Under the pieces are notes generated by a model. The model searched no databases. It was not told the origin of the DNA and worked only from the letters and a program-made list of their open reading frames with translations. Below, one piece after another: positions 30,595-53,848 of a stretch of 64,000 nt of DNA (positions within the stretch are counted from its first letter, which is position 1; every line of letters begins with the position of its first letter). A program made the position numbers and the translations under genes. The stretch covers positions 558,001 to 622,000 of the forward strand of contig JAQSEB010000181.1 in NCBI GenBank assembly GCA_030063045.1, read 5' to 3'. Source of the stretch: Pratylenchus scribneri. Taxonomy: Eukaryota; Nematoda; Chromadorea; Rhabditida; Pratylenchidae.

Positions 30595-30703
30595 AAGTGG
30601 TGCCACGACCAATTTGGAAAATCTTCGAGCCATTGGGGCAATAATCTGGTTTGCCATTGGGGCAAAAAACTTTGGTTTTGGTCGTAAATTAAAATAATTT
30701 TGA

Positions 30704-31288
30704 ATTCCCCTGCCTAAGGCAAAACTGTCTTCCTCAATCTTCAATCGAGTGGAACGTGTCTCATCAAGGAGGCCTCGAATCGAACGATCACCCGACAACA
30801 GAAGGCGACACGATCGACCGGCCCATCGACGATCAGCACCGGCCCAAATTTTGATTGAAAGGAGTCGGAGAATTGCAAATCAGCGGCCAAATAACAACAG
30901 AGACCGACGCCAATCTCCGCCAATTCAACAACAAGCACCGGCGCCTCAAATTCAGCCAGTCGTAATCCAAGTGCCTGTCCCCCAAATTCCGGCGCATCAA
31001 CCTTTTTGGCCTAGACCCCAATTTCAACCAAGGGTCTTTTGGAACGCAAATTTTCAAAGACAACCCCAGGCTATCTATCGACCTCATCATCAGCAACAAA
31101 GTCGGCAGCAGCGCCCAAATCAACGTCCCCATCATTTTGATCGGCAACAACCCAGCAACAACCAGCAACATCGACGTAATCGGCCATTTGTGAGACGAGG
31201 CTATGGCGGACGTCCTGCAAATCACCGTCAAAATGCTGCGCGACCGGCTCAATACAATCGTAATGGAAACGAACGAAATAGACTTTAA
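30704..31288 (+). other. Arg/Gln/Pro-rich open frame without ATG
   Basis: An open frame of about 194 codons lies in the leader between the left LTR and the polyprotein and overlaps the polyprotein start by 86 bp in another frame (+1 relative to this one). It has no ATG at all. It codes a basic, disordered-looking chain rich in Arg, Gln, Pro and Asn, such as RRPRIERSPDNRRRHDRPAH. It could be translated from a non-AUG codon or after splicing, or it may be chance. I do not know a Bel/Pao protein like it. Confidence 0.35.
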
Positions 31289-37200: not shown

Positions 37201-40200
37201 TTGGAGAAAGTGATGAAAAAATAAATAATTTAAAACAATTACTGGAAAATAACAATAAAGAATTAACAGCCGTCAAATTAGAATTTATTAACGTGGTTGA
37301 AGAAATTAAAAAACTGGAAAATAAGTTGGCAAAAGTAGAAGAAGAGGCCGGTTCGGCCAAATGGGGAATGTTACGAATGAAAAATGAATTGTTCTCAAAA
37401 GAAAGTGGGTTATCCGATGGCGATGAATACCCAAGGCCCAAAAATAAGCAAAAATATAAGAAAAATTTCCCCAAAAAGAGTAAATCGAGCACTGTTTTGG
37501 CTGTTGCTAGTGCGATTTTGATGATTATTTTCTTTTTATTTAATCCAATTTGTGCTTCCCCATGTGCAAAAAATGAAATTAATTTAAAATTTCGACATTT
37601 GGATGAATGTGTTTCAAGTGGGTTAATAATAAATGAGAGAGAAGATGGAAGTTTGTGCTGGACAAAAATTGAATGCAATTCGACACATTTGAGAAAGGAA
37701 TTTGCCGCAAAAGGGTATTGTGGGCCTAAATGTGAATGTCCAAAATGGACCGACCAATGCACATTTTTTGATGGCCCAGCAATTAAAAATTCCACGAAGA
37801 AAAATGAAAAAACGATGGAAATTTTGAGAAATTTAAAGCCAAATTATTGCTCGCTTGAGGCGACAGAAGAATGCAATAAAGTGGCCAATTGGAAGGAATT
37901 CAACCAAATCGAGCTTTTTGATGGAGAAAAATTTTTGATTAAGGAAATAAATTTGGAAATAGAAGATGTGAATAAAGATGGCTTTGAGTGCATCGGCGAA
38001 GGTTTGTCAACCGGATCGCCAAAATATTGCGCAGAACACACATGCTCAGAAAAGGGCACAAAATTTTGCTATTTCCCAAGAAAGGAATTAAGTTTCCTAT
38101 TGACTTCGGATGGGAGAATTCCGATCAAGGCATGGGGAAAGACAAAATTAAAAGTATTTGATTTTAAAACGAAAAAATTGGAATGTCCTTGCCAATTGGA
38201 ATGCATTAATGAAGGAATCCAATTAAAATCTGAAATTAAATTGGGCGGAATTGAAGTTTGTAGTGGCGAATGCATTTATATTGCCCATCCAGAAAAAATT
38301 GAAAATATTACAATGCCACAAGAAAAAATCATTTCTGGCTTTGAAGCCATTGGAAAATTTTTCAAAGAAGGTGAAATGATAAAAGAAATGGGGATTAAAT
38401 GCAAAGCAAGAGACATTTGTGAAATCATTGCATGCCGAATTTGCTGGAGTTATTTGAAAAATCCCCATTGCTTCCCCGAATTTGCAATGTTTTTATTTGG
38501 AATACTGTTTTATTTTGCATTGAACACAATCTATATTGTTGGAAAAATTATAATTTGGATTTTGAAATTGTTTAATATAATTGGGAGAGCAAAAATAAAT
38601 TGTGTCCTTTGGACAGCAAAAACAATAAGAAAATTGACAAGAAAAAGAAGAAATGCGGAAAATGAAAATTTGATTGATGAATTCCCACTGGAAGAAGTGC
38701 CTGTTGAAGAAGAAAGGGAGAGTTGGGCCTCAAGGATCAGTCCACTCAACCCAAATAATTGTAGTCCAGTGGGAACCAAATACGCGGTATTTGCAATTAT
38801 TCTATTTGTTTTCCTCTTTGGAATCACCAACGGACTCACAACATTGACAGCAAATGAAGAAAACTGCATAATAAAGAAGAATGGCGAAAGAAATTGCCTA
38901 TTTGATCATGTTTTGGAAATTGCCTTAACGGCAGAAGAACAAGAAATTCAAATAATGATGACTGATAATAGAGGAAAAATTGCTGGAGGCATCCAATTGA
39001 ATGTGCCCAGAGTGAATTTGATTTGCCCAAAAAATTTCAAATTCTTTTCAAGAACGGTAAATATTGAAGTGACATCTGCCAAAAGCTGTGATGATGCTGG
39101 CAGTTGCAAAAATCAAAAATGTTCAAAATTAAAAATGGATGAAAAAATTAAGGAACTGAAAATTGGTAATGATTATCCGGGAATCACACAATGCATGGAA
39201 ACACCCGGCGGTTGGGGAGTGGGATGTTTTTATTTCACACCCGCTTGTTTATTTTATCGAATTTATATGACCCCAGCTGAAAAAGATATTTTGGAAATTT
39301 TCAATTGTCCAACAATTTGGGAAAGATCATTAAAATTAAATGTTTCGATCATAAAAAATGGTGAGCAAAATGGAACAAAAGTAATGGATTTGGCACCGGG
39401 AGAAAAACAAACTTTCAAAGAATTGGAAATAACGGCAAAAGAAATTTCGGTGCCAAATATCCCATTGCTGGCTACCACATTTATAAGCGATGGGAAAAGA
39501 ACAGCCACTTTAGACCAGGAAATGGAGAGCAATTTGAAAAAATTTAAATGTAAAAGTAAAAAGGAGGCAATGGAGTTTTCAAATTGCACAGTTGATGTCC
39601 AAAGCTGCAATTGCCATCCAGCGGATGGCACAGTAAAATGCCTTTGCCCGGAGGTTTCCTCCGGAATGCAGATTTTCAAAGATGACAATGTTTTGCCCTT
39701 CAACCACAACGGATTGATAATTAAAAATGAGGATGGAAATGTGATGGCATCCCCCGACTTTACTTCGATTATTTTGCAATTAAAAATTTCTGGAATGAAT
39801 TTGAAAACTGAAGTGGAAATGAATACATGCAAAATAAGCAATGCCAATTTAACCGGATGTTACGAATGCGAAAAAGGCGCACAATTGGATATAATGTGCG
39901 AAACGGATTTCGGAAAATCTTTGGCAAATATTGTTTGCCCGTCAGCAAAACTGTTGACCACTTGTTCCCCGAAAGGGACAAGAAAAATTCATTCCGTCCA
40001 TTTTTCCACCGCACAAGTTGATGAAGAATGCGAAGTTTTTTGTGGAAGCACTTCAACTAAATTTAAGTTGAAAGGAACGTTGGCATTTCCAGAAATGAAA
40101 GATGAAAGTGAATGGAAAATGGCCGTTGGCCCCATCAATTTGATAAATGAATTTAAAGGATTTGATTTTAAAAATTTGTTGAAATATTTGTTGGACCCAA

Positions 40201-40352
40201 AACAATTAATAATTTGGTTGGCGACAATTTTCGGAATGTTTGCAATCTTCTATTGCTCCGCGCCAATCATTCTTCGGCTGCTTCTTCGGTTGCTGATGGC
40301 ACCTTTTGTCCCCCGGAGTGTCGTGGCCGATGTTCATTCAAAGATTGTTTGA
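31203..40352 (+). CDS. Bel/Pao gag-pol-env polyprotein, 3049 aa
   Basis: One uninterrupted frame from ATG 31203. In order: a coiled gag region with the DUF1759-like KLPEFSGELKNW at 147-158; three zinc knuckles at about 368-430 (CKFC..H..C, CLKC..H..C, CFTC..H..C); an aspartic protease with DSG at 516-518; reverse transcriptase with motif A D833 (FCDVKSAFHQI), CMPFG and motif C YADN at 911-914; RNase H around D1077; integrase with an HHCC head and D1445, D1508 and E1549; and a DUF5641-like tail to about 1745. A fourth knuckle (CLFC..H..C) is at 1972-1984. The envelope part begins with a hydrophobic segment near 2100 and holds a phlebovirus G2-like region (TPGGWGVGCFYF, about 2670) and a last membrane helix near 3010-3035. 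The usual second Asp of YxDD is Asn here. The final 11 codons run into the right LTR. Confidence 0.9.
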   Translation: MADVLQITVKMLRDRLNTIVMETNEIDFKIGENDMDGANKLREKCIEQMGKLKNAIKDLDEENRNYGNFLETLGQERKELELATYKGLATGVSGFLTIMNTARGVIDVLEKNKRFFDKMLPSASNEILDISRMAIRENINVKLPEIKLPEFSGELKNWNSFFEEFTAAVDDQDIPDKRKMQYLKSALKGEPLEIVESYPLEAKNYKTVLKILKKQFGDTQNIKNSLHSGLRKLKKANNFMPEIKKTHREVRAILNQLENVGENIENAQLIFEVESKYPQNILRKIYEKKKSSPNLGIKAMMDFLDEYLKLEEDIYRIHREFDFGNEKYEKKYGKYEKYDKYNGFKKGQWKGPNKYENKTIANMQKRNCKFCGDEHWEDKCPKFKTNDERLAKAKELKICLKCLGKGHISKECKKNVKCFTCKKDGHNSAFCRQKAKKAADEKKNYKEHNKIKNEKMCMATEIDEENENKSLEKVLMNNLIGKKKKEKDITLMQVALAPVRNPYALGQKSEAAIFLDSGCEISLILNVLAKKLDLHIIGEKQFRGSGLFNKTIIINSPIYIFQILSQNNEAINIVARGVEKRQMVERLKMADPKTFKHFLKDDITNEENILEVMPEILIGSDFYSEIVGLPKTKSGFSILETKIGKILTGKSHIWKTETEPIICQMIEQEKFWEIEECGINEIKKNENDIFAHKHFLNTVQRDNEGRYVIKWPIREKPSQLSNNFWICLKRLQGVWNKLNKNGLLEKYCAPFNEQIEKGIIEKCKDNSGITVYIPHHCVINEEKGKIRPVFDFSCKTPEGISVNDFILRGRVMLADICGMILRFRNFPIAIFCDVKSAFHQIKVKENQRNLARFLWFKNPKKPPALDNIEEMRFTCMPFGIIAAPSLLGEVTDYHLANYGTEFAEKLRKGIYADNPGFGASNTMEAIEKCHEIIKIFGDAKMKLHEFVSNDKLVMEKFGDKESKNPIKILGIGWDVEKDAIIIEIKEIKNEIKWTKRKVAKGTAKTFDPPGLTIPANLPRKIFFQSLWKENKYGWDDQIDEAYLEEWKNIIGDSGKFLIRRRAVKNPDAEMELHIFVDASAKAYASVAYIVEKMNKMTNSSIVYAKGKLAPIKAKLTIPRLELMAAVSGCKMLEFIKKEIDLKIGNYYIWSDSKVVLSWILISNVDKLPKFVKNRVLELRKDTKIKWKYVPTDVNPADLASRGCNCAELKANSIWWEGPKFLKFDEIKWPKAPELTKNEKEWDKKLEEINMDMFVNEIIDIKIRNEWPKLVNISVATCKAIKIFGQKIKFETEFMIDLQNNKNAIEIRKLAEILLISQDQYKYPPSEKEMQNLFMEKSKYGIWTCPGRLGNSGQKAQIFISYESPLAEIICNEAHLRTLHSGLRQSLTELRKTFWIPMGRKKMKMTINKCFYCRKAKLEPIAFPKMPNLPEERAKISIPFTNCGMDYAGPFKVKNFKGEIMKIWIEIFTCMATRFTHLELIPDLTAKSCINALRRFIAEYGKPKYLISDNGTQYRLTYKVVNEIEKKIELEKIRWTFIPSVSPWFGGFYEAMVKIMKKALKAAVGRKFLFFEELRTILPEVKLVMNTRPLTYVYENVEESLEILRPIDLMFPKRNEKIIDLDNLEIDEFKLKETQRDELIKNWKNANDMLNYFCKKWEKEYLNELKERADRHRQKIAKKNYLPQIGEIVLVHQENAPKFSWNLGKIVELIKSKDGLIRSAKVKCKGKILTRAIVLLYPLELRAHAEEEIEENKQNTKHPMKLRERKNVKNYKEYSDDEDLKFGAFVLEDPPSDSEEELWVINEENEDELQNENDSEIHECIYCAQMREEVANSSNSLTEDEEEIFYESEAESGSGVYWCTCPCAIGRGRSTPIECICKSSLKPCLCQPNKSKKKNKKCKERLEKIKKDSDDEPEPEPMELGSENLEEVVMCPLVFERSRPRQNPPDEYLEEGVFDISRPRQNSSRKQRPRRNCLFCGELHFERECKKFTPNEKIEFCVKKVGESDEKINNLKQLLENNNKELTAVKLEFINVVEEIKKLENKLAKVEEEAGSAKWGMLRMKNELFSKESGLSDGDEYPRPKNKQKYKKNFPKKSKSSTVLAVASAILMIIFFLFNPICASPCAKNEINLKFRHLDECVSSGLIINEREDGSLCWTKIECNSTHLRKEFAAKGYCGPKCECPKWTDQCTFFDGPAIKNSTKKNEKTMEILRNLKPNYCSLEATEECNKVANWKEFNQIELFDGEKFLIKEINLEIEDVNKDGFECIGEGLSTGSPKYCAEHTCSEKGTKFCYFPRKELSFLLTSDGRIPIKAWGKTKLKVFDFKTKKLECPCQLECINEGIQLKSEIKLGGIEVCSGECIYIAHPEKIENITMPQEKIISGFEAIGKFFKEGEMIKEMGIKCKARDICEIIACRICWSYLKNPHCFPEFAMFLFGILFYFALNTIYIVGKIIIWILKLFNIIGRAKINCVLWTAKTIRKLTRKRRNAENENLIDEFPLEEVPVEEERESWASRISPLNPNNCSPVGTKYAVFAIILFVFLFGITNGLTTLTANEENCIIKKNGERNCLFDHVLEIALTAEEQEIQIMMTDNRGKIAGGIQLNVPRVNLICPKNFKFFSRTVNIEVTSAKSCDDAGSCKNQKCSKLKMDEKIKELKIGNDYPGITQCMETPGGWGVGCFYFTPACLFYRIYMTPAEKDILEIFNCPTIWERSLKLNVSIIKNGEQNGTKVMDLAPGEKQTFKELEITAKEISVPNIPLLATTFISDGKRTATLDQEMESNLKKFKCKSKKEAMEFSNCTVDVQSCNCHPADGTVKCLCPEVSSGMQIFKDDNVLPFNHNGLIIKNEDGNVMASPDFTSIILQLKISGMNLKTEVEMNTCKISNANLTGCYECEKGAQLDIMCETDFGKSLANIVCPSAKLLTTCSPKGTRKIHSVHFSTAQVDEECEVFCGSTSTKFKLKGTLAFPEMKDESEWKMAVGPINLINEFKGFDFKNLLKYLLDPKQLIIWLATIFGMFAIFYCSAPIILRLLLRLLMAPFVPRSVVADVHSKIV

Positions 40353-40684
40353 TGATTGACATTTTACATTTTTGATTTTTACGTTTAAATTTCCATTTAT
40401 TAGTTTGTCCTTTCCATTCACATTTATTTCCATCCCAATTCCCAAATTTTGCTTTGTCATTGGCCAAAACCAACGCATTTTGTGCTCGTTTTTGGCCCCC
40501 AAAAGCTTTGTCATTGTAGTTTTATTTAATGTTTGGCTTGTTCCCCCATTATTACCATTCCCACTGATCATTCACAAAAAGTAAAGAATTCATTCACAAA
40601 TAAATTGCTTGGATAAAATATAATTTTATTGGACTCAGTAAAAAGAGTAATTTTGGTAATTGTTGGATCAATTGGGATTCAACA
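40319..40684 (+). repeat. right LTR of the Bel/Pao element
   Basis: Reads the same as the left LTR over its full 366 bp. The polyprotein stop (40350-40352) lies inside it. It is followed by the AAATT target duplication. Confidence 0.95.
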
Positions 40685-40689
40685 AAATT

Positions 40690-41768: not shown

Positions 41769-42900
41769 ATGGCACTTCCTAACAACAAATTGTGGACCCC
41801 AATAAAACGGCCACTGGCTGAAATTGGCAACAATGATCGTAGCTGCCCGCCTAATCCCAACAATCGCATCAAAATACCACGTCGCCCATCGGCGAAAATT
41901 GATCTTGAACAACGTTCTGAACGCATGGCGTTGAAACAGGTGGCCTATTATGCCAAACAACAGCAACAGGGAGGAAAGAATATTCATAATATGGCCAAGA
42001 GCCAATTTATTGAGGCCATCGCTCAATTCATCATCAACGGCAACAACAATTATCGCATGGGCCTACTCGATGAGGAGATTTACATCCTCTTCCCCCATTT
42101 GTCATTGCCCGCGGCCCACAAAATTTCGAAGAAAGTGGGCGTCGTATCTGCTTTAATGATAATGACCGTTATCGACAATGGGATGGGAGCTGAATTGTCC
42201 GAGGAATTGGGTGGAATTTTGGAGATAAACATTAACTGGGTAATGGAGGGGAATGGAAATGGAAATTTTATGGCTAATTTTATGGTTTAATTTAGGAACC
42301 ATTGAAAAAAGCGAAAAAATTGGACGTTTTGTTTGGAATTACTCCAGTCACCCAACGTTTTATCAACCAAGTGAAAGAGGAATTACAGCATTTGGGAGGC
42401 AATTTCAAAGAACATCTTCAAAACTTCCAAGTGGCCGGCAATCTGATTTTTAGGGTATGTTAATATGGGTTAATTCAAAATTAAAACTCCTCATTTTCAG
42501 AGCCACTGCCCGGAAACACTTGTCTTCAATCTAATTGGGAATTGGCCAAGAATGAGGATGGGGCCGAAGGTTGGACAAAAAAGTGTAAAGGTAATTTACA
42601 TTTAAAATTATTAATAAATTATTAATTTCTTTAAGGACCCGAATGCCCCTAAGCGCCCATTAAGCAGCTACAATCTTTGGCTCAAAGAGAATCGGGACAA
42701 AATCAAGAAACCAGGTAAATATTTCCCTTAGCTTATTATTTAACTTAATAATTTGTTCTTCAGGCATGACAATGGTCGAGGTCAATCAGGCGGCTGGTGT
42801 GAAATGGAAAGCACTGGTGGACAAATCCAATTGGATCAAAATGGCCGCTGATGACAAAGTTCGCTATGAGCGGGAAATGGCTGCATATGGGGGACAATGA
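41769..42900 (+). CDS. HMG-box protein
   Basis: Five exons: 41769-42239, 42296-42454, 42501-42590, 42636-42714 and 42764-42900. Phases agree and the product is 311 residues. The C-terminal end is an HMG box of the HMGB/SSRP1 type: DPNAPKRPLSSYNLWLKENR, then KALVDKSNWIKMAADDKVRY. Such boxes bend DNA without strong sequence preference and act in chromatin. The first 240 residues are not recognised; they start with a basic, Pro-rich stretch and contain a Gln run (KQQQQGGKN). Four of the five exons carry strong splice signals. The promoter region is occupied by a tandem repeat. Confidence 0.8.
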
Positions 42901-42994: not shown

Positions 42995-43837
42995 TGTTTT
43001 TTTATTCTCAATTCTGATTTGGGATTGTAATTCTGATTTGGGATTCTAATTCTGATTTGGGATTCTAATTCTGATTCTGATTTGGGATTGTAATTCTGAT
43101 TTGGGATTGTAATTCTGTTTCTGATTTGGGATTGTAATTCTGTTTCTGATTTGGGATTGTAATTCTGATTCTGATTTGGGATTGTAATTCTGATTCTGAT
43201 TTGGGATTCTAATTCTGATTTGTGATTCTGATTCTGATTTGGGATTCTGATTCTGATTTGGGATTGTAATTCTGATTCTGATTTGGGATTGTAATTCTGA
43301 TTTGGGATTGTAATTCTGTTTCTGATTTGGGATTGTAATTCTGATTCTGATTTGGGATTGTAATTCTGATTCTGATTTGGGATTGTATTTCTGATTTGGG
43401 ATTCTGATTCTGATTTGGGATTGTAATTCTGATTTGGGATTCTAATTCTGATTTGGGATTCTAATTCTGATTCTGATTTGGGATTGTAATTCTGATTTGG
43501 GATTGTAATTCTGTTTCTGATTTGGGATTGTAATTCTGTTTCTGATTTGGGATTCTGATTCTGATTTGGGATTGTAATTCTGATTCTGATTTGGGATTGT
43601 AATTCTGATTTGGGATTCTAATTCTGATTTGGGATTCTAATTCTGATTCTGATTTGGGATTGTAATTCTGATTTGGGATTGTAATTCTGTTTCTGATTTG
43701 GGATTGTAATTCTGTTTCTGATTTGGGATTCTGATTCTGATTTGGGATTGTAATTCTGATTCTGATTTGGGATTGTAATTCTGATTTGGGATTCTAATTC
43801 TGATTTGGGATTCTAATTCTGATTTGGGATTCTGATT
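42995..43837. repeat. tandem TTCTGATTTGGGATT array
   Basis: About 840 bp made of TTCTGATTTGGGATTGTAA and TTCTGATTCTGATTTGGGAT variants in higher-order blocks. Its right end runs directly into a truncated F-box-like gene copy, and the left end is 95 bp after the HMG-box gene. Confidence 0.95.
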
Positions 43838-44033
43838 CAGTCAAATCGAGGCCATAGTTAAGGGGAAATTAAGTAAGAACAATACAACTTGGATCTTCCA
43901 CAATTTGTGGTTGGACCAAGTTGAGAAAGAGGGGGAAATATGGATTAAAAAAGTGAATCGAATTCTCGATTTCATTGTGTACAATTTGTATAGGATTGAA
44001 AATAGGTATAGGATAAGTTGGTCAATCATTTAA
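43838..44033 (+). pseudogene. 3' fragment of an F-box-like gene
   Basis: 196 bp that read the same as the end of the gene at 45279-45833 (45638-45833), followed by about 80 bp of nearly matching 3' flank. The 5' two thirds are missing and replaced by the tandem array. It appears to be the remnant of an earlier unit in a tandem gene duplication; the match implies it is recent. Confidence 0.9.
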
Positions 44034-44177
44034 ATTTAAAAATTCAAAAAAAAAAATATTAAAATATATAAAATATATTAAAAAAATATAAAATTTAAAA
44101 TCAAAAAAAAAAAATAAAATTTAAAATGAAATAAAAAAATAATAAAATTCAAAATACAAAAAGAGGGTTTTAGTAAA

Positions 44178-44473
44178 ATGGGTGTGGTTAAATTTTTTCT
44201 CCTTAATTTTGATTTCTTCTTATAAAATTAAAATCATTCCAGAAAAATTCAAAATTTTTGCGAAAACAAACACAATTCTAAATTCTCTTAAAATATTCAA
44301 AATATTCTCCCTAAATAAATAAATAAATTTATTCATTCAATAAAATAAATTCATATTTTCATCCTAAAATCCCCATCCTAATTTTTCATTATAAAATTCT
44401 CATCCTAATTTTCCATAATCCCATCCTATTTTTCCATCCTAGAGGATTGACCAAAATAAAAAGCATCCTTACA
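44178..44473 (+). promoter_or_regulatory. shared upstream module, copy 1
   Basis: Starts with GGGTGTGGTT, then CTCCTTAATTTTGATTTCTT, AAAATCATTCCAGAAAAATT, TTTTTGCGAAAACAAACA, ATTCTCCCTAAATAAATAAA and a run of CATCCTAATTTT words up to the ATG. The same order occurs before the polymerase and, more loosely, before the second F-box-like gene. Confidence 0.6.
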
Positions 44474-44992
44474 ATGAATACAGATCTCAATAAAAAGGGT
44501 TTGCCCAATGAATTGCTTTCAGAATTGGTACAATTTGTCCCCTATGAAAATTTATGTAATATTTCCTTTTCTACCTGGAAAATTTCAAGCTATGCCATCC
44601 CTCTCCATTATAAAATCAAAAATAGGGTCGAAAAAAACACCAACGAAATAATGAAACATTATTTTTCATATTACGATAATTGTTTTATCGTAATTAAATC
44701 CCAAATAAAAAATGGAAAAGAATCAATTCAGTTGAATATTTCCCAAGAAAATAAATACCCTTTTACTCGTGGTTTTCTGATTATACTTGTCAGAGAGCTT
44801 AAAATTAGAATATGGAATTTAGGAAGCTTATTTATTTACGGGGAAAATAAATCTGGAAGGGATCCAAATATGCAGAATCAATTATTTGTACATTTTAGAA
44901 AATTATGGCTTATTTCAGCAAGAAAAAATGATAGAGCTTTGGTTGAAGAAGCCGATGAAACAATTGATTTAATAGAAAAAATAATTAATTGA
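44474..44992 (+). CDS. F-box-like protein 1
   Basis: Single exon of 172 residues. The start was taken at ATG 44474 because the first residues match those of the second gene; the frame is open a little further up without an ATG. Residues 8-40 look like an F-box (KGLPNELLSELVQFVPYENL...). F-boxes link target proteins to SCF ubiquitin ligases through Skp1. The rest is a polar, probably helical region that resembles the second gene only in parts, notably near the end (HFRKLW). Together with the polymerase upstream module this suggests it belongs to the virus-like block. The F-box call rests on the first 40 residues only. Confidence 0.55.
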   Translation: MNTDLNKKGLPNELLSELVQFVPYENLCNISFSTWKISSYAIPLHYKIKNRVEKNTNEIMKHYFSYYDNCFIVIKSQIKNGKESIQLNISQENKYPFTRGFLIILVRELKIRIWNLGSLFIYGENKSGRDPNMQNQLFVHFRKLWLISARKNDRALVEEADETIDLIEKIIN

Positions 44993-44995
44993 AAA

Positions 44996-45278
44996 AGTGG
45001 GCGTGAACTAATCTCTATAAAAATGGGGGATTTCCCTCTCTAATTTTCATTCCCAAATAATTCTAAAATCATTCTTGAAAAAAACTCAAAATTTAGTGAA
45101 CCCCAATTTAATCACCTCTATAAAAATAAATTTATTCCCTAAAATATCACATCCTAATTTTACATCCTAATAATAATAATAATTCTCATCCTAGTTTTTC
45201 ATCGTAAAATCCTACCCTATTTAATTTGGCAATCCTAAATCTAATTAAAATCTTCCTATCCTAAGATTAGGCATAAAA
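44996..45278 (+). promoter_or_regulatory. shared upstream module, copy 2
   Basis: GTGGGCGTGAAC, then CTCTATAAAAATGGGGGATT, CTCTCTAATTTTCATTCCC, AAAATCATTCTTGAAAAAAA, TTCCCTAAAATATCACATCC and CATCCTAATTTT/ATCCTAAT words up to the ATG. TATAAAAA at 45016 and 45116 may be TATA boxes. Confidence 0.6.
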
Positions 45279-45833
45279 ATGAATACAAATCTCGATAAAA
45301 AGGGCCTACCCAATGAGTTGCTTTCAGAATTGATTAATTTTGTCCCTTTTGATAAATTATCAAATATTTCCTTTTCTACATGGAAAATTTCAAGTTATGC
45401 CATCCCCCTCCATAATAAAATAAAAAAGAGGGCAAAAAAGAATGTGGATAAAAAGATGAAGAAATATTTTAAGGAATTTGAATATTCTCTTAAATTTGTG
45501 GATGATTTATTAGATATAGGAAAAGAGATGAAAACGAATTTAAAGAAGAATAAGTATGCCTATGACCCTAGGTATCTTAGCGGTTACATGCGTACTTTAA
45601 AGTCATTTACGGAGAATGCCAAATCCAAATACCAATCCAGTCAAATCGAGGCCATAGTTAAGGGGAAATTAAGTAAGAACAATACAACTTGGATCTTCCA
45701 CAATTTGTGGTTGGACCAAGTTGAGAAAGAGGGGGAAATATGGATTAAAAAAGTGAATCGAATTCTCGATTTCATTGTGTACAATTTGTATAGGATTGAA
45801 AATAGGTATAGGATAAGTTGGTCAATCATTTAA
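45279..45833 (+). CDS. F-box-like protein 2
   Basis: Single exon of 184 residues. The first 48 are nearly those of F-box-like protein 1 (KGLPNELLSELINFVPFDKL...NISFSTWKISSYAI). The remainder is basic and likely helical, ending WIFHNLWLDQVEKEGEIW and a hydrophobic tail. Its last 196 bp are duplicated at 43838-44033. The two genes lie 286 bp apart in the same direction, so they look like a tandem duplicate pair that diverged in the substrate-binding part. No partner can be named. Confidence 0.55.
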   Translation: MNTNLDKKGLPNELLSELINFVPFDKLSNISFSTWKISSYAIPLHNKIKKRAKKNVDKKMKKYFKEFEYSLKFVDDLLDIGKEMKTNLKKNKYAYDPRYLSGYMRTLKSFTENAKSKYQSSQIEAIVKGKLSKNNTTWIFHNLWLDQVEKEGEIWIKKVNRILDFIVYNLYRIENRYRISWSII

Positions 45834-45984
45834 ATTTAAAAATTCAAAAAAAAAATATTAAAATATATAAAATATATTAAAAAAATATAAAATTTAAAAT
45901 CAAAAAAAAAAATAAAAATTCAAAGAAATATAAAAAATTTAAAATCAAAAAAATAAAAAAATTAAAATCTAAAAAAATAATAAT

Positions 45985-46440
45985 CAATAGTATTTGTCGT
46001 ATCCCGTCGTATCAGTCGTAATCGTCGTACCAGTCATATCCCGTCGTAATCGTCGTATCAGTCGTAATCATTGTATCAGTCGTAATCGTCGTAGTAATGT
46101 AGTAATTAGTACTTAGCTTAGCAACTTAGGAACTTAGTAATTAGCACTTATTAGTAAAGGAATGATCTATGTAGATGTCTATGCACCTTACATGTCTATG
46201 CACTTTGCATGTCTATGTAGATGTCTATCCACCTCATATGTCTATGTAGATGTCTATGCACTTTCCATGTCTATGTAGATGTCTATGCAACCTATGCATG
46301 TCTATGCACTTTGCTTTTGCTCTTCTTCTCTGTCCAAAAATCAAATCTATCTGTCTTTGCTCTATGCTTTTGTTCTATTTCTTTGATCTATTTCTTTGCT
46401 CTATTTCTTTGTTCTAATCTTGTTCTATTCTTTTGCTCTA
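45985..46440. repeat. short irregular repeats
   Basis: Three different simple repeats follow one another: TCGTAATCGTCGTATCAG words (45990-46090), TGTCTATGTAGATGTCTATG words (46160-46310) and CTATTTCTTTGCT words (46370-46440). Confidence 0.85.
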
Positions 46441-46479
46441 GAATTTAGCCACTATCTCCAAAAAAAACGAAGACTTTAA

Positions 46480-47135
46480 TCCAAAATAATCCATTCCTAA
46501 TCCAAATAATCCATAATCCAGATAATCCATATAATCCAAATCCAATCCATAATCCAATCGATAATCCATTCCATAATCCAAAATAATCCAATTGATAATC
46601 CAATCCATAATCCAAATAATCCATATAAACCAGTCGATAATCCATTCCATAATCAATATAATCCAATCGATAATCCAATCCATAATCCAAATAATCCATT
46701 CCATAATCCAGATTTAATCCACATAATCCAGATAATCCAATCCATAATCCAAGACAATCCAATCCATAATCCAAATAATCCATTCCATAATCCAGATTTA
46801 ATCCAGATAATCCCTATAATCCAAATCCAATCCATAACCCAATTGATAATCCATTACATAATCCAGATAATCCAAATAATCCACCTATAATCCATTCTAT
46901 AATCCAAAACAATCCAATCGATAATCCATTCCATAATCCAAAATAATCCAATTGATAATCCAATCCAAATAATCCATATAAACCAGTCGATAATCCATTC
47001 CATAATCAATATAATCCAATCGATAATCCAATCCATAATCCAAATAATCCTGATTTAATCCCGATAATCCATAATCCAAATAACCCAATCCTAATCCAAT
47101 CGATAATCCAATCCATAATCCGGATAATCCATGCT
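46480..47135. repeat. ATAATCCA-based tandem repeat
   Basis: About 650 bp of ATAATCCAATCCATAATCCA variants with a higher-order period. The long minus-strand frames rich in Asp, Tyr, Leu and Trp come from this repeat. Confidence 0.95.
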
Positions 47136-47295
47136 ATAATTAATATCAATCAATTACTCAACGAATAATCAATCAATCACTCACGTAACTAACCAACCAA
47201 CCAACCAACCAATCAATAAATAAATAAATAAATAAATAAATATTTTTGGATTTTATATATTTTATTTAAGGGGTGTGTGAGAGAGTTAGAATGAA
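47136..47295. repeat. CAAT/AATA simple repeats
   Basis: CAATCAATCACTCA, then ACCAACCAACCA, then AATAAATAAATA, lying just past the 3' end of the TBP gene. Confidence 0.85.
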
Positions 47296-47805
47296 TTAGT
47301 CACCTATTTTGCCATTCTCTAGTCTATGTCTTACGCTTTCAAATGCTCTGAGACTATCTTCAAAGTTATCTGAACCCGTAATAACAAACTTTCCACTTGC
47401 AAAAACATTCAATATGACTTTTTGGCCTTTAAAATTTATTTTTGCACCGGGGAATAATTCAGGTTCATATTTACATGGGCCAATTTTATATAAATTAATG
47501 TGAAAGCCCATATTCCCTGTAAAAACCATGTTAGTGATTCGAAAATTTTGTATTTTTGCATCCATATATCCTTTAGAGAGTAAGAAAAGTAGAGCTTCTT
47601 TTGCAGATTCATATGCGATTTTCTCGGTTTTTGCCCCATTGACAACAAATTTTCCACTCTGGAATATTAGGATTGTACTTTTTTCTAGTTTAAGGATGGC
47701 GGCTGCGAATTTTTTGGGTTCATATTTGAGACCTAATTCATCTAATTTTATTTCCACACAAAATATTCCAGTTGAAACTGTATTTTGAAGATTTAGGATG
47801 GTCAT
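47296..47805 (-). CDS. TATA-binding protein (TBP), intronless
   Basis: A single 169-residue frame that is just the TBP saddle, with no N-terminal extension. The two direct repeats are clear: repeat 1 has LQNTVST, YEPKKFAAAI and ILIFQSGKFVVNGAK; repeat 2 has ITNMVF, YEPELFPGA and LNVFASGKFVITGS. The four phenylalanines that wedge into the TATA minor groove are all present (F33, F48, F118, F135), as are the paired Asn residues (N8, N92). TBP places RNA polymerase at promoters. It is diverged from the normal animal TBP and lacks introns, unlike the other genes of this window, and it lies head to head with a virus-type DNA polymerase. TTTATAAAATT lies upstream (minus strand, near 47853-47863). 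It is probably not the host's main TBP. Confidence 0.85.
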   Translation of the reverse strand: MTILNLQNTVSTGIFCVEIKLDELGLKYEPKKFAAAILKLEKSTILIFQSGKFVVNGAKTEKIAYESAKEALLFLLSKGYMDAKIQNFRITNMVFTGNMGFHINLYKIGPCKYEPELFPGAKINFKGQKVILNVFASGKFVITGSDNFEDSLRAFESVRHRLENGKIGD

Positions 47806-48030
47806 TTTTAGTGAGAGAGAGAGTAATTGAGAAAAATAAAAAAATTTGGGGAAAATTTTATAAATGAATTTTTAAAATGTTCAGGAATTGTTTTTGAAGG
47901 GAAAGTGGGCGTGGCCTATGAAAATACTGATCAAGTAGAATTTTCCTTTTTTTCTCTCTATACCTCCTAAGAACCCATGCTATCTTCTCTTTTCAGCTGC
48001 ATCCAAAAGCTCTTCGATGATTGGCTGGTC
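47806..48030. promoter_or_regulatory. divergent spacer between TBP and polymerase
   Basis: Contains a GAGAGAGAGAGT patch next to the TBP start and one GTGGGCGTGGCC word at 47904-47915, the same word that opens the shared upstream modules. Confidence 0.4.
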
Positions 48031-48491
48031 AAAAGGGGGCGTGGCCTGTTTTCAGAATCTCGGGGTTATCCCTCTTAATTTTGATTCCTCCTTATGAGCC
48101 AAAAATCATTCTTGAAAATTCCAAGATTTTGCGATCAAACAATTCTAATCAGCTCTCTTAAAAAATTATTCTCTCCTAAATAAATAAATTTAAATAAAAA
48201 GTAAAAAATTATATCCTATTTTTTCATCCTAAAAGTTGAAAAATCACATCCTAATTTTCCATCCTAATTTTTCCATCCTAAAATTATCATCCTAATTTTC
48301 CATCCTAAAATTCCAATCCTAGTTTATCTCCCTAAAATTTCCATCCTAATTTTTTCATCCTAAATTAACCAAAAATATTTAAAAAAATCCCATCCTAATT
48401 TTCCATCCTAAAATTATCCAATAGAAAATTCCCATCCTAATTTTCATCATAGGAAACGCATTCATTTAATTCATTTCATTATATAATCATT
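48031..48491 (+). promoter_or_regulatory. shared upstream module, copy 3 (polymerase)
   Basis: GGGGGCGTGGCC, then CCCTCTTAATTTTGATTCCT, AAAAATCATTCTTGAAAATT, ATTTTGCGATCAAACAA, ATTCTCTCCTAAATAAATAA and a long run of CATCCTAATTTTCCATCCTA words. TATATAATC lies 10 bp before the ATG. Confidence 0.6.
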
Positions 48492-51400
48492 ATGATTCAA
48501 CAAATTATTAAAAATACTCGCCGTGTTCGTTCGGAGGGTATTGAAAATACAAAAGAAAAAAGTCCCCAAAGAAAATCACATGGTGATAAGCCAAATAAAC
48601 CATTCTATCACGTTATAAGATCCCACGCTTCACGTATACCAGCTTTTTCACTTACTCAGCATGTCACCGAATTTGTGGTTACAAATGCTGGCTTTGCCCC
48701 AGAAGTTGGTCTCAAATCAATGTTTAACGATTTGATTGAGTCTGCCTATAGGGCAGACGTTAAAGAGGGAAGGGGTCTGCCGGATAAGTTTAGTATGATA
48801 ATTAAAGGTGAGGGTTTAGACCAACCCCTCTCAATTCCACTACGTGATCGTCAACAGAACAACGCTGACGCAATCATGGGAATTATTTGGAAGCTTGCTC
48901 AATCTGACAAGCTAATCAATTTTTTAAATTCGGAATTCCAATGTATCCTCACAACAGCAAGGGTGCCAAATGGCGCCGGAGTTACCCTTAAGCAATTCAA
49001 GCAGCTTCCCTATGCCTACAAGGAGAAACAGCGGATAAAAATCAATAATTTGAATAATGTTTATTGTCTATTCTATGCTCTGGAAGCAGCAAGAAAATAT
49101 CATGATGATTATATCATTAGTGAATATAAAGAAAAAAATTTGATTTTTCCTCCTGGTCTTTTGACACGATGTTCATGGGATAGGTATATGAGGAATGAGA
49201 AAAGACAAAAAGAAGGTGCATTAGAGTTAATGGAGAGCATTGGCTTTAATATGGATAGAGATGCATACGGTATAGAATGTCTAGACCGTGTTCAGGAATT
49301 CTATGATACAAAATATCCCTATCTCTATAGAATCGTCGCTTTCGATGATTCTCGGACATTAAAGCCGATATACAAAGAGGCGGAAAAGAGAAAATATGAT
49401 GTGGCATTATTTTTGGAAAACAATCATTGGGATGGTTTAAGGAATATTGCGGCATTCTTTGATGTTAAATACTATTGTGTAGATTGTGAAATCAGTTATG
49501 ATGCAGATTGGAGTCATCGGAAGGAATGCGTGTCGCATTGCTCCAAATGCGGAAGGAAGGGTTTTGAATACCCATGCAAGGATGAGGGTCTCAGGAAAAT
49601 ATGTCCACATTGTAAGAAAACATTCTATGGGGAGGATTGTTTTGAACACCACGAATACATTATGTGTAAAAAGTATAATCGGTGTTTAAAATGTGGCTGT
49701 GATTATATGGTAGAGAAAGATAAAAAGGGAAAAATTATAAAACATGAATGTGATCTTAAGCGTTGCGGGAAATGCCATAGATTTCATAAAGGGAAGAACT
49801 GTTTCATGAAGCCACTAAGGCCACTCAAACCGAAGCCCGATTATAGGATTATGGTATATGATTTCGAATGTAGACAGGATGTGGAAGAAAGGAATGGAAT
49901 TCATGTGCATGTGCCTAATGCCCTCTCTGTGAGATGGACTTGTACAAATTGTCTTGGGGGATACAAGAAAGGCTGTAAAATTTGTACATTAATGGGAGGG
50001 AATGAGAAGTGTAAACTCTACTGGAGTGAGCCAGAAGGGGATATACCTGCATATGATTTCATTAATTGGATGCTCATGGCTGTCCAATATAGTAAAGTTC
50101 CAACATATATCTGGGGTCATTATGCCGCCAAATACGATTCACACCTAATCCTTGATCAATTATATCTGAGGAATCTCATACCAAATGTTTTAATGTGTGG
50201 GATGAAAATATATGAGATAGCCATCAAACAGACAAGCAAGTCTCAACCTATAATACTCCGTGACTCCTTTCTTCTTCTCAACAATAAGCTGGCTAATCTT
50301 CCAAAGACCTTTGGTCTAAAGTGTGAAGACAAGGGTCATTATCCACATCATTATAATATCAAGCAAAATTATGGAACCACTCTACCCCATCTTCCTCCAC
50401 TATGGTGTTATGGTCCAGATGGAAAGAAAACATCTGAGAGGGAGGAATTAATAAAGTGGTATAGAGAAAATTATAATACACCATTTGAATTTGAGGCAGA
50501 GTTAAAGAAATATAATGAACAGGATACACAGATATTATTCGAGGCAATACTAAAAACTAGGGAAATTGTATTAGAAATAGTTCCTGGTTTTGATTCTCTA
50601 GTTTATGGTTGTACCACAGCTGGACTAGCTATGGCCATAATGAAAAATCAATTTGTAGAGAATAACACAATTCCAATAATACCGGAAAAAGGCTTCGAAT
50701 TAGAAGACAATAATAGCCTCATTGCCATCAGACATATGGAATGGTTAAAGAAAGAGAATGGATGGTCTATTATACAACATGCTGGAAATGGACCGGAGAA
50801 GAGATTGAAAATTGGGGATAATGAATTCAAATTAGATGGCTATGTTCCAGTTCAGGCAAATAATGAGGAGGAATTTGCTATTGAAATATTTGGTTGTATG
50901 ATTCATGGCTGTCTGAATTGTATGGATAGAGAACAAAAATGTGTAAGTGGGAAGTCAGCCGAATATGAATATAGCAAAACAATGGAAAGATTGGAAAAGA
51001 TTAGAGAGATTATGAGAGTGGATATATATTGGACATGTGAGATAAAGAAGCAGATGAAGGAGAATCCAGAAATGAGAAAATATATGAATGAGATTCCGGA
51101 TAAGGGTCCAATTAATCCACGTGATGCCTATTTTGGCGGTCGAACTGGGAATTGTCGGTTTTTTGCCGAAGCGGATGATGAGAACGAGATCCTCATGGCG
51201 GACATTGTCAGTCTCTATCCACATGTAATGTTCTCTGAGAAATTTCCGGTGGGTATTCCGGAAATAATGGTCCCCACCGAAACTCATGTCAATTGGACCT
51301 GTCCCTCTGATGTGAAATTCGATGAAAAAGAGATCAAGGGGCTCATAAAATGTAGGGTAACTGCACCAAAACAACTGCTCCATCCAGTTATCCCTGCCAG

Positions 51401-52487
51401 AGTTGGCGAATTTCTCATGTTTGCCAACTGCCTAAGATGTGCAGAGAAATTACAAGCGAATCCGTCCGTCCAACCAATTTGTAAACACACGGACGAGGAG
51501 AGGGCATTCTACCCTACAATCACACATCTGGAGTTACATGAGGCTTTAAGGCAGGGATATACGGTAGATCGTTTCTATAGGGCCTGGCATTGGGATGAAG
51601 ATCAGTGGAGGGATGACCTATTCAAACCCTATATAAAGATGTTCCTTAAGATAAAGGTAGAAAGTAGTGGATGGCCCAAGGAGACAGAGAATGATCCCAT
51701 TAAACAGAGAGCATTTATGGAACAATACAGGGAGATGGGGATCGATCTAGATCCGGCAAAAATGAAATTTAATCCTGGCATGAGGGCTATTGCAAAATTA
51801 GCCCTAAATAGTCTCTGGGGAAAGTTTTCTATGAGGAATAACCTCTCAACATCAGAGATTGTGAAAAGTCCTCATCGTTTCTATCAATTGGTACAAGATC
51901 ATACCAAAGAGATATGCATCCCTCATGTAATCAATAATGAAACACTCAGGGTTGTGATTAAGAGTAGAGAGGAATATATTGAGCCCCATTCCTGTTCTAA
52001 CATCGTTATTAGCCTCTGGTGTACCAGTGCAGCGAGGATGGTACTCTATCGCTATATGCAAGAATCGGAGGCAAATGGTTGGAATGTAATGTATACTGAC
52101 ACGGATAGTATCATTGCAATCGGACCCCGTGGCACCCAACCCTTCCAATTTGGAGACCAACTTGGGGAGATGTCACGAGAGCACGCCTCGAAACAGATCT
52201 TACGGTTTGTTTCAGGCGGTGCCAAACAATATGGCCTTCTCTTTGATAAGGGGCAACTGCTCAAGATTCGGGGTTTCACCCTCGATCATAAAACCTCCCA
52301 AAAAATCGATTTTGAAGTAATGGAGCAGTTGGTTAGAAATGGGGAGGGGATTGTATTCAGTTACGATCAGATAAGGGCTGGCTTCAATTCGAAAATAACA
52401 ACAAGAAAAGTTCAGAAGAAATATCAGCCAAAAAGTATGAAGGGAGTGAAAGATGGCGATATGTTAAAGCCTTTTGGTTATATTTGA
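48492..52487 (+). CDS. protein-primed type B DNA polymerase (Polinton/virus-like)
   Basis: One intronless frame of 1331 residues. The middle and end carry the DNA_pol_B_2 motifs: Exo I YDFEC at 456-460, Exo II GHYAAKYDSHLIL near 542, Exo III YNEQD at 674-678, polymerase motif A DIVSLYP from 904, motif B ALNSLWGKF from 1104 and motif C YTDTDS from 1201. All catalytic acids are present, so it may be active. The first 450 residues include a Cys/His-rich region (about 328-440) with several CxxC pairs, as seen in Polinton/Maverick and adintovirus polymerases. Such enzymes copy linear DNA from a protein primer. The gene is head to head with the TBP gene and shares its upstream module with the F-box-like genes. 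No other Maverick gene is seen nearby. Confidence 0.9.
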   Translation: MIQQIIKNTRRVRSEGIENTKEKSPQRKSHGDKPNKPFYHVIRSHASRIPAFSLTQHVTEFVVTNAGFAPEVGLKSMFNDLIESAYRADVKEGRGLPDKFSMIIKGEGLDQPLSIPLRDRQQNNADAIMGIIWKLAQSDKLINFLNSEFQCILTTARVPNGAGVTLKQFKQLPYAYKEKQRIKINNLNNVYCLFYALEAARKYHDDYIISEYKEKNLIFPPGLLTRCSWDRYMRNEKRQKEGALELMESIGFNMDRDAYGIECLDRVQEFYDTKYPYLYRIVAFDDSRTLKPIYKEAEKRKYDVALFLENNHWDGLRNIAAFFDVKYYCVDCEISYDADWSHRKECVSHCSKCGRKGFEYPCKDEGLRKICPHCKKTFYGEDCFEHHEYIMCKKYNRCLKCGCDYMVEKDKKGKIIKHECDLKRCGKCHRFHKGKNCFMKPLRPLKPKPDYRIMVYDFECRQDVEERNGIHVHVPNALSVRWTCTNCLGGYKKGCKICTLMGGNEKCKLYWSEPEGDIPAYDFINWMLMAVQYSKVPTYIWGHYAAKYDSHLILDQLYLRNLIPNVLMCGMKIYEIAIKQTSKSQPIILRDSFLLLNNKLANLPKTFGLKCEDKGHYPHHYNIKQNYGTTLPHLPPLWCYGPDGKKTSEREELIKWYRENYNTPFEFEAELKKYNEQDTQILFEAILKTREIVLEIVPGFDSLVYGCTTAGLAMAIMKNQFVENNTIPIIPEKGFELEDNNSLIAIRHMEWLKKENGWSIIQHAGNGPEKRLKIGDNEFKLDGYVPVQANNEEEFAIEIFGCMIHGCLNCMDREQKCVSGKSAEYEYSKTMERLEKIREIMRVDIYWTCEIKKQMKENPEMRKYMNEIPDKGPINPRDAYFGGRTGNCRFFAEADDENEILMADIVSLYPHVMFSEKFPVGIPEIMVPTETHVNWTCPSDVKFDEKEIKGLIKCRVTAPKQLLHPVIPARVGEFLMFANCLRCAEKLQANPSVQPICKHTDEERAFYPTITHLELHEALRQGYTVDRFYRAWHWDEDQWRDDLFKPYIKMFLKIKVESSGWPKETENDPIKQRAFMEQYREMGIDLDPAKMKFNPGMRAIAKLALNSLWGKFSMRNNLSTSEIVKSPHRFYQLVQDHTKEICIPHVINNETLRVVIKSREEYIEPHSCSNIVISLWCTSAARMVLYRYMQESEANGWNVMYTDTDSIIAIGPRGTQPFQFGDQLGEMSREHASKQILRFVSGGAKQYGLLFDKGQLLKIRGFTLDHKTSQKIDFEVMEQLVRNGEGIVFSYDQIRAGFNSKITTRKVQKKYQPKSMKGVKDGDMLKPFGYI

Positions 52488-53848
52488 GAGAAAGAGAGAA
52501 TTAGAGAATGAAAGAGTTTGAGAAAGATAGAAATTAATAAATAAAATAATAAAAAATATAAAAAAAGATAAAATATAAAAATTAAAAAGATAAAAATCAA
52601 TAAAAATTAAAAAAGGATAAAAAATCAATAAAAAAGAAATATAAAAATCTACAAAAAATATCCCTCCCCCTCCCTTCTTCCATACAGTATATAATCTATA
52701 CAATACTAATCTTCTAGTCTATACAGTATAAAAATTATACTTTTTAGAATCGAATTTACCCCCCCCCCCTTGACCTTTTATGGAAATGGTTAGATCCCCC
52801 TCGTAAATCCTTATTTGGATTTAAATCCTCCTTTTTCCCTAAATTTTAAAGTATGACTTTATCTATGGGCCTGGAGAAGGGATAATCAATAAATCATTGA
52901 ATAATAGATTAGAGGGGGCCAAAAAGTTCGAGGTTACCCTTGGGCTTTATTGCCAGCCGGTTTCAAGTACGAGGTTATCTATGGGCTGGGCTGCCAGCCG
53001 AGAAAATTCTGCGTTAGGAACTACTAGCGTCCGTGCCAGATACGATAGTGACCCCAAGCAATCTTTTACTATTCTAAATTTAACAGCAATGATATATTTT
53101 TATTCTATCTTAAGATTCTGGAGTGATATTCAATTTATTATAAGTATTTATTATGAATGATAATTGAAAAAATGGGAAAATTTCCACATATTTTTATTTT
53201 TGTTGTCCCTATTTTGGAAAAATAGGTATGAATCAGCAAAGCACTTGTTTCCGCACCTTTCTCATATTAATGCTCCGATATTTTATTTTATTCCATTGAT
53301 GAATGTTTTCTTTTTTTACCTTTTGTTGTTACTTGTTATTAAGGAAAATGCTTCCTAAATTGGTTAGCCAAATAACAATATGATAGGATGGAATTTAAGT
53401 GGAAATAACAATTCCACCTATTAATAATAAAATATTTAAAATGGCGGAAAATGAAAAGATAATAGCGGTTTAATGGTTTGTTTGCCCTAGACCCCAAACC
53501 ATATAGCTTTAATATGATTCATTTTTTTTCTGGATATTTTTTTATTCTATAAATATCGCCTCAATTTATTCCCGATTATTATTTATTATATTATTATTAG
53601 GAAATGAATACTCATTTTTAGATAACAAAAATCGGAAAATATATATCAATTTTCGTAAAAAATTGTAAAAAAAATTAAGTTTTGTAACCGAAAAAATAGT
53701 TTGGCTTTTTTTATTGCAATTTGACAAAGAAATTTTCCCTAAAAAGGAGTACTAAAATAGCGAAATTAGGTCAAAAATATGTAAAAATGTTCCCGAATTA
53801 TATTAATTTCAATATTTTAGCCAATATTCTTGTTTATTACTGAAAAAA
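52488..53848. other. intergenic after the polymerase
   Basis: A-rich sequence with GAGAGAAAGAGAG, then a C-run (52759-52768), then two direct copies of CGAGGTTA...GGGCT...TGCCAGCCG (52929-52959 and 52971-53001). An open frame at 52897-53160 lacks any recognisable feature. A partial ACCGGTTT-family foldback seems to lie near 53465-53510. No TIR that could close the virus-like block was found. Confidence 0.45.

Follow-up and report, generated by a model that had tools for sequence, protein, structure and literature searches.

A Maverick-like element carrying a DNA polymerase and a TATA-binding protein in Pratylenchus scribneri, and its probable dependence on partners with the same termini

In the stretch of Pratylenchus scribneri DNA analysed here (contig JAQSEB010000181.1, positions 558,001–622,000; 64,000 nucleotides, hereafter the window), a gene for a protein-primed-type family B DNA polymerase (PolB) lies close to an intronless gene for a TATA-binding protein (TBP) and to two F-box-like genes. 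The locus raises the question of whether these genes form a single mobile or viral unit and, if they do, how that unit would be inserted and packaged. We find that the block is one copy of an element with terminal inverted repeats (TIRs), here called the A-element, which moves as a unit. The A-element is probably an element of the Maverick/Polinton kind, 15.5–16 kb in length, that carries a polymerase and a private TBP and depends on a partner with the same TIRs.

Copies, ends and mobility of the A-element

The window polymerase is intact, as first proposed, its gene being one uninterrupted frame of 1331 residues that matches the Pfam profile PF03175 with an E-value of 8e-36. It contains motifs that we take to be those of the exonuclease and polymerase domains. 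A sequence search of the PDB with this protein gave no match. Phylogenetic analysis places the A-element polymerase among polymerases of Mavericks from the same genome, from Globodera and from Meloidogyne; in a tree built from a 183-column piece of the polymerase, the A-element sequence, those of loci L045 and L046 and one Globodera sequence make up one side of a starred branch.

Searches of the P. scribneri genome (227,248,964 bases in 276 contigs) revealed four copies each of the polymerase and the TBP at 92% identity or above: one in the window, one on contig C142 and two on contig C131 (C131a and C131b). The two genes are together at all four places where either is found at this level, and the three other pairs, all intact, are 92% (polymerase) and 93–96% (TBP) identical to that of the window. 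In every copy the TBP gene starts 0.7–0.8 kb from the start of the polymerase gene and runs in the opposite direction. F-box-like genes are present in three of the four copies, none being seen in the truncated C131a copy. The original prediction had set in advance the test that polymerase, TBP and F-box genes should recur together; the pair indeed recurs in three more copies, two of them with F-box-like genes.

Mavericks are recognised by TIRs flanked by a 6-bp target duplication and by 5'-AG...CT-3' ends, and all of these features are found in the C142 copy and in the C131 composite. The C142 copy (C142:364184–379650) is complete at 15,467 bp, bounded by TIRs, and begins with AGTAGTACC and ends with GGTACTACT. 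Its TIR arms, 270 bp in length, agree at all 270 aligned bases and differ in length by 7 bases at a G run; the target duplication TCCGCC stands on either side. The insertion interrupts a BEL element, of which the window has an undivided twin with the empty site near position 31204, and the flanks match this twin over 831 and 253 bases with identities of 100% and 99.6%. On C131, two copies are arranged head-to-head with CACGGT on their outer sides, and the outer arms are 99.8% identical over 500 bases. C131b measures 16,016 bp between its TIRs; C131a is truncated and joined to a 0.73-kb polymerase piece. Both complete lengths fall in the 15–20 kb range of Mavericks and Polintons. Taken as a whole, C131:355326–379181 is a single insertion of two head-to-head A-elements. 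It has one target duplication, and its first copy contains the polymerase piece in inverted orientation; the pair looks like a joined replication product.

The C142 and C131 insertions differ in both their flanks and their target duplications, which rules out duplicates of one ancient insertion. Because these insertions carry 6-bp target duplications and further copies exist elsewhere, we conclude that the A-element moves as a unit. The Maverick/Polinton relation suggested by the original prediction is thus upheld by the PolB, the TIRs and the 6-bp target duplication. The window copy extends from the outer end of its right TIR (position 53025) leftwards at least to 41769; a left TIR was sought in the window and none was found, so that this copy has a right TIR only, its left end being lost or unrecognised. 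The unit is accordingly larger than the block first described: the TBP gene is intronless as claimed, but the left arm includes a high-mobility-group (HMG) box gene with introns.

For the genes that would make the element self-sufficient, we searched the A-element with tblastn (E-value threshold 0.01), using 14 queries from Mavericks of the same genome against the entire C142 element, the C131 copies minus 656 bases (C131:371001–371656) and the window. Three integrases, two ATPases, two proteases, two major capsid proteins (MCPs), a minor capsid protein, two PAZ proteins and one thymidine kinase gave no match in these sequences. Twelve of these 13 queries did find relatives in other Mavericks, the thymidine kinase finding only itself, and the fourteenth query, a CD38-like protein, had its match in the C142 copy. 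The RVE integrase that a Maverick would encode was not found with three Maverick integrases, nor were the FtsK/A32-like ATPase, protease and capsid genes. The remark in the original prediction that no such genes are visible holds when tested with positive controls, and the A-element has no detectable integrase, packaging ATPase, protease or capsid gene.

The original prediction had also suggested either part of a larger integrated virus or a new type of element. If the block were the remnant of one larger DNA virus whose capsid half had been deleted, it would have a precedent in Polintons described as lacking the MCP together with the ATPase and protease (PMC4028283). The element without capsid genes is nevertheless complete between its TIRs in C142 (15.5 kb) and C131b (16.0 kb), so that the capsid-less form itself moves, and we regard a remnant as highly improbable. 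What stands of the suggestion is the tie through the TIRs to a second element bearing capsid and integrase genes, described below.

The TATA-binding protein and a promoter-like module

The presence of an intronless TBP was correctly recognised: the 169-residue protein matches PF00352 with an E-value of 4e-33, and its AlphaFold model (mean predicted local distance difference test score, pLDDT, 92.8) has the saddle fold, with query-normalised template-modelling scores of 0.78–0.93 to solved TBPs. The two-repeat saddle retains what are presumably its DNA-contacting residues, including positions that we take to be the DNA-intercalating phenylalanines and the TFIIB contacts, among them YEPELFPG. 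The protein is 36–39% identical to cellular TBPs and 18–24% identical to the TBPs of Mavericks. In a 49-row tree it stands beside the host TBP with support of 84/0 on a branch of length 3.25 changes per site, and a tree in which it is joined to the Maverick TBPs is not rejected (approximately unbiased test, p-AU 0.37). The TBPs of L045 and L046 and their relatives from Meloidogyne and Heterodera form one group apart from the cellular TBPs in the same tree (100/99).

Selection was assessed from the ratio of non-synonymous to synonymous substitution rates (dN/dS) in comparisons with dS of 0.23–1.0. Between the three diverged lineages, dN/dS is 0.079–0.085 for the polymerase and 0.05–0.15 for the TBP; it is 0.17–0.21 for F-box-like gene 2 between diverged lineages and 0.39 for gene 1 in one pair. 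C131a and C131b are too alike to count (polymerase dN and dS both 0.001, ratio 0.745; TBP dN 0.003, dS 0). We conclude that the polymerase and the TBP are under purifying selection. That the TBP could be a retrocopy of the host gene, a possibility raised at the outset, stands only in that it lies nearer to the cellular TBPs, with the test result given above; a passive retrocopy is ruled out by the purifying selection and by the four copies that travel with the polymerase.

The same observations dispose of the idea that a degraded Maverick polymerase, a TBP retrocopy and members of an expanded nematode F-box family have come together by chance. The single TIR of the window copy and the weak placing of the TBP by the host TBP would suit it, but three further polymerase–TBP copies have TIRs and, wherever the reading covered both ends, target duplications that differ in location and surroundings; all frames are open and dN/dS is far below 1. 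Chance clustering is refuted by the other copies and we give it practically no credence.

To what extent is a TBP peculiar to the A-element? The Pfam TBP model has 132 matches in the genome, from which 71 loci were obtained by keeping start positions by eye and omitting second repeats and exons. The ATPase was used as the distance marker for Mavericks because many polymerases are split by introns and few polymerase candidates were scored; the lists used here and below hold 150 of 307 ATPase, 150 of 360 polymerase and 113 of 438 integrase candidates, and the TBP search scored all 140 candidates of a first look. Of the 71 TBP loci, 54 lie within 12 kb of a listed Maverick-type ATPase, where chance would give about 1.6%; the host TBP (C33, C115) and the four A-elements are among the other 17. 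Seven of the 71 are within 25 kb of a listed polymerase, and four of these seven are the A-elements. In three loci read over some 9 kb each (L045, L046 and L047), an integrase, an ATPase and a PAZ-like gene accompany the TBP; polymerase exons are present in the first two, and the polymerase match of the L047 lineage lies outside the 9-kb stretch. A TBP in Mavericks is not unique to the A-element. The original prediction, which knew of no described Maverick with a TBP, was in this respect too narrowly drawn; no published case was found in the literature searched.

A PAZ-like match adjoins the TBP in all seven TBP loci read that are neither A-element nor host (L007–L010 and L045–L047), the match in L009 being weak (E-value 0.009). 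Pfam itself recognises PAZ only in the L044 protein (PF02170, 9e-9) and not in the piece of L045 examined. A PAZ protein as short as this could perhaps disturb the Argonaute pathways of the host. Relatives of the L045 TBP, 44–50% identical, are found in Meloidogyne and Heterodera; among these relatives, a PAZ and a TBP domain are combined in gene model P0042 and, by eye, P0017 has a PAZ-like sequence before the TBP. Two side observations concern these loci. L007–L010 represent a second lineage of Maverick type, in which the TBP is split by introns and accompanied by a PAZ-like gene and by a gene that, by eye, is NADAR-like, and in L045 a thymidine kinase gene (4429–5037; PF00265, 6e-37) within the Maverick adjoins the TBP.

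A module of about 100 bp, resembling a promoter, occurs at 11 distinct places in the four A-element copies, each upstream of a gene: before the polymerase in all four, before the F-box-like genes of the window, C142 and C131b copies (C131b gene 1 being incompletely read) and before two further genes of C142. None stands upstream of the TBP or HMG genes, apart from partial matches of 12–13 bits near the TBP in C142 and C131, and nothing above 14 bits was found elsewhere in the loci examined, where there are partial matches of 10 and 9 bits. Arrays of an ATCCTA unit lie between module and start codon in the window copy; the window has 41 plus-strand copies of the unit, 24 of them in the stretches preceding the three genes. 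These units are not essential, because a C131 gene is preceded by a single copy and the C142 stretches have none. The motif TATTC is present in nine of ten modules (mean of shuffled sequences 3.8) and TATAWA in five of ten (3.7), counts that are not independent evidence since the modules share descent.

The arrangement is consistent with a two-step scheme. Host TBP would start the TBP gene early; the element TBP would then bring host RNA polymerase II late to the genes with a module, namely the polymerase, the F-box-like genes and the two C142 genes. The TBP gene itself, having no module, would stand outside this control. Instead of acting as an initiation factor, the TBP might inhibit host transcription, serve as a decoy for it or bind replication origins, which would fit either of the element schemes considered below. 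Its very long branch (3.25 changes per site) allows that its function has shifted, but the positions presumed to contact DNA and TFIIB are kept and the module-bearing genes share their upstream module; we consider this role unlikely.

Partner elements with the same terminal repeats

The 270-bp TIR of the C142 copy has 56 matches in the genome. On C109, C130 and C172, inverted pairs of A-type TIRs, 15.5–15.9 kb apart, enclose an integrase, an ATPase and an MCP (Table 1), and a fourth partner, on C150, has the ATPase and MCP with no listed integrase. A fifth, on C142, has a TIR that is 100% identical over 266 of 270 bases to that of the A-element; its left TIR was not identified, the TIR at 657100 being too far away with another MCP (665884) in between. 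Capsid, ATPase and integrase genes, which the original prediction had proposed to seek next to other copies, were thus not found in the A-element and are present in partners that share its TIRs. Five more ATPases lie near an A-type TIR with no listed integrase or MCP (C45, C83, C102, C164 and C273), and short pairs of A-type TIRs without integrase, ATPase or MCP occur on C79 (about 0.5 kb) and C9 (about 2.9 kb). The lengths agree, at 15,467 and 16,016 bp for the A-element and 15.2–15.9 kb for the partners.

Neither a TBP nor a polymerase is found in the partners among the listed matches. A listed polymerase lies within 20 kb of none of the ten ATPase loci of this TIR family and of 75 of the 140 other ATPase loci (Fisher p 0.0014, from non-independent loci, two of which, C83 and C273, are less than 3 kb from a contig start). 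The same 20-kb test was applied to loci grouped by their MCP. Of the 48 loci with 54% or more MCP identity to L046, a TBP is present in 45 and a listed polymerase in 34; of the 26 loci with 39–47% MCP identity, six have the former and five the latter; the five partners have neither. We regard the absence of a polymerase from the partner as no more than likely because 14 of the 48 loci of the L046 clade also escape the search, 150 of 360 candidates were scored and about 4.3–5 kb of each partner is unread. Genome-wide, there are at least 152 ATPase, 157 polymerase and 180 capsid scored matches of Maverick type, most of them in open frames, a large Maverick load.

Since the TIRs are shared and 6-bp duplications are present, the integrase of the partner would insert the A-element in trans through the common TIRs, and the partner ATPase and capsid probably package it. 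More tentatively, and at somewhat less than even chance, the two may be mutually needed: a bipartite Maverick, in which a single lineage of animal DNA viruses would have two segments of equal length that share TIRs and integrate separately. The division of labour that this would entail, with replication and transcription (polymerase and TBP) on one segment and integrase, ATPase and capsid on the other, is a possibility that we hold just as provisionally. The common TIRs, the equal length, the TBP on one element and the integrase, ATPase and MCP on the other would suit two segments of a bipartite virus if the partner, in which no polymerase was found among the listed matches, lacks one.

Alternatively, the partner is a complete Maverick whose polymerase lies in the unread 4.3–5 kb, and the A-element is a satellite that has retained its own polymerase but hijacks the integrase and capsid of the partner. 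The stretch between the partner capsid gene and the right TIR would just accommodate a 4-kb gene, and in the related L047 lineage (C110) a polymerase match lies 1.3–2 kb past the capsid gene, on the other strand; the scoring of 150 of 360 polymerase candidates and the 14 clade loci without a listed polymerase point the same way. The contrast of none in ten with 75 in 140 argues against a satellite, within the non-independence of those loci. So does the lack of a TBP in the partner when 45 of the 48 loci nearest in capsid sequence carry one, a protein that the A-element could supply. On balance we find a satellite less likely than not.

Several points weigh against our preferred reading, that the A-element depends on its TIR-sharing partner. 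Genes that are split by introns or very divergent could escape tblastn, and 656 bases of C131b lay outside the search. The partners are known by coordinates, and their unread 4.3–5 kb beside the right TIR could hold a polymerase. The window copy lacks a recognised left TIR, and the sample amounts to four copies from three diverged lineages. The A-element polymerase could act only on its own element, and the module could be a feature of recombination or replication, or upstream DNA duplicated along with the genes. Finally, the reading is built on sequences and models, from which transcription, binding and packaging are predicted.

Accessory genes and relation to known systems

Table 1. Positions of features in the window and of related loci elsewhere in the genome
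Feature	Location	Strand	Remarks
BEL/Pao element, 3049-aa frame	30229–40686		Pao peptidase, reverse transcriptase, integrase and Phlebovirus G2 fusion domains (some below cut-off)
Left-arm gene with introns	41769–42898	+	HMG box in exons ~42636–42714 and 42764–42898
Tandem array	43004–43838		reported periods 19 to 176; similar array within C142 copy
Duplicated 3' end of F-box-like gene 2	43838–44030	+	100% identical over 64 aa
Promoter-like module upstream of F-box-like gene 1	44194–44298	+	nhmmer 48 bits
F-box-like gene 1, 172 aa	44474–44992	+	ATG at 44474 by eye; PF00646 E 0.018, below cut-off
Promoter-like module upstream of F-box-like gene 2	45028–45131	+	nhmmer 49 bits
F-box-like gene 2, 184 aa	45279–45833	+	paralogue of gene 1; without Pfam F-box match of its own
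Tandem array between TBP and F-box-like genes	46477–47155		common to C142 copy
TBP, 169 aa, intronless	47296–47805	-	transcribed away from polymerase; PF00352, fold model
Promoter-like module upstream of polymerase	48063–48174	+	nhmmer 78 bits
Protein-primed-type PolB, 1331 aa, intact	48492–52487	+	open frame; PF03175; four copies; dN/dS
Right TIR	52837–53025	-	outer element end at 53025
Partner	C109:1531042–1546520		integrase, ATPase, MCP inside inverted A-type TIR pair
Partner	C130:328196–343879		integrase, ATPase, MCP (MCP frame with one stop)
Partner	C172:94541–110465		integrase, ATPase, MCP inside inverted A-type TIR pair
Partner, 15.2 kb	C150:1021609–1036853		ATPase, MCP; no listed integrase
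Partner	C142		integrase 686743, ATPase 688517, MCP 694047
PAZ-like gene	L044 1842–2681; L045 ~3044–3745; L046 ~3332–4133; L047 ~4631–5108; L007–L010

The two F-box-like genes were first described as F-box or F-box-like genes. They are indeed two paralogous open reading frames, 41% identical, but the domain itself is not borne out: neither has an F-box above the Pfam cut-off, gene 1 scoring 15.4 bits against PF00646 where 20.5 is required (its C142 copy 15.7 bits, E-value 0.015) and gene 2 giving no match at all. Because, in addition, the fold model (pLDDT 45) is too poor for use, F-box-like is the most that can be said of them. The block of these genes is inverted in C131b (L041 8624–9697) relative to the window and C142. 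At the site of the left-arm HMG gene, C142 and C131b have a gene distantly related in its N-terminal part in which no HMG box was seen; the window protein and its C142 counterpart are 29% identical over 59 residues (E-value 4e-5). A CD38/ADP-ribosyl-cyclase-like gene, below the Pfam cut-off (L042 3558–4052, L044 1033–1587), was observed beside ten of the Maverick polymerase loci examined and is also found inside the C142 A-element, with 49% identity. The neighbouring BEL/Pao element of the window is young, its long terminal repeats being identical over 367 bases, and by eye it has a short AT-rich repeat (approximately AAATT) on either side.

No report of a Maverick TBP was evident from titles and the beginnings of abstracts in the literature searched; prior mention, notably in work on nematode Polintons, is possible. 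By word count, 'TATA' and 'TBP' are absent from PMC11071296 and PMC11071308. For an alga, PMC10675990 mentions TATA-binding proteins in connection with integrated elements that may derive from mirusviruses. Segmented or bipartite Mavericks were not apparent from titles or the beginnings of abstracts among the papers listed, 'bipartite' in PMC12220804 referring to a gene network. No relative emerged when IMG/VR was scanned with the polymerase, an alignment of Maverick TBPs, a TIR word and a Maverick ATPase.

A general transcription factor borne by Mavericks, in the A-element and in dozens of other loci, suggests that these elements have a promoter class of their own inside animal nuclei. If the A-element and its partner are two halves of one virus, a virus with a capsid has had its genome split into separately integrating segments, and Mavericks without capsid genes may be segments rather than necessarily dead transposons.

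The closest comparison is with Mavericks and Polintons themselves (Polintoviricetes, adintovirus-like), which the A-element resembles in its Maverick-type PolB, TIRs, 6-bp duplication and size. Polintons carry a protein-primed PolB, an RVE integrase, an ATPase, a protease and capsid genes, and forms without the MCP have been described (PMC4028283). Integrase, ATPase, protease and capsid genes do occur in other Mavericks of this genome; the A-element differs from these in having none of the four detected, in its TBP and in sharing its TIRs with a separate capsid-bearing element. The MCP-less Polintons of that paper are alike in that capsid, protease and ATPase genes are absent in concert, and unlike in that the A-element also lacks the integrase and has TIR-sharing partners with capsids; a TBP is not mentioned in the available text. 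From the other Maverick TBPs, in the Pratylenchus loci read and their Meloidogyne and Heterodera relatives, the window protein differs in its low identity and in having no adjacent PAZ-like gene, the others, in the loci read, lying beside one and near an integrase and ATPase; what the window protein has in common with those of the Pratylenchus loci is a place on a Maverick-type element.

Among viruses, the Bidnaviridae (Bombyx mori bidensovirus; PMC4061559) provide a DNA virus in two segments, with a PolB and TIRs that are proposed to come from a Polinton. They are single-stranded and parvovirus-derived, unlike the A-element, and the part of that account available mentions neither a TBP nor a Maverick partner. 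The TBP-like proteins of beta- and gammaherpesviruses (BcRF1, UL87 and ORF24; PMC4893493) are virus-encoded TBP folds that direct late viral transcription. Their identity to TBP is around 10%, and they work at TATT boxes together with five more viral proteins, whereas the window protein is 36–39% identical to cellular TBPs. The proposed order of early and late genes in the A-element would resemble herpesvirus late transcription in principle and not by descent.

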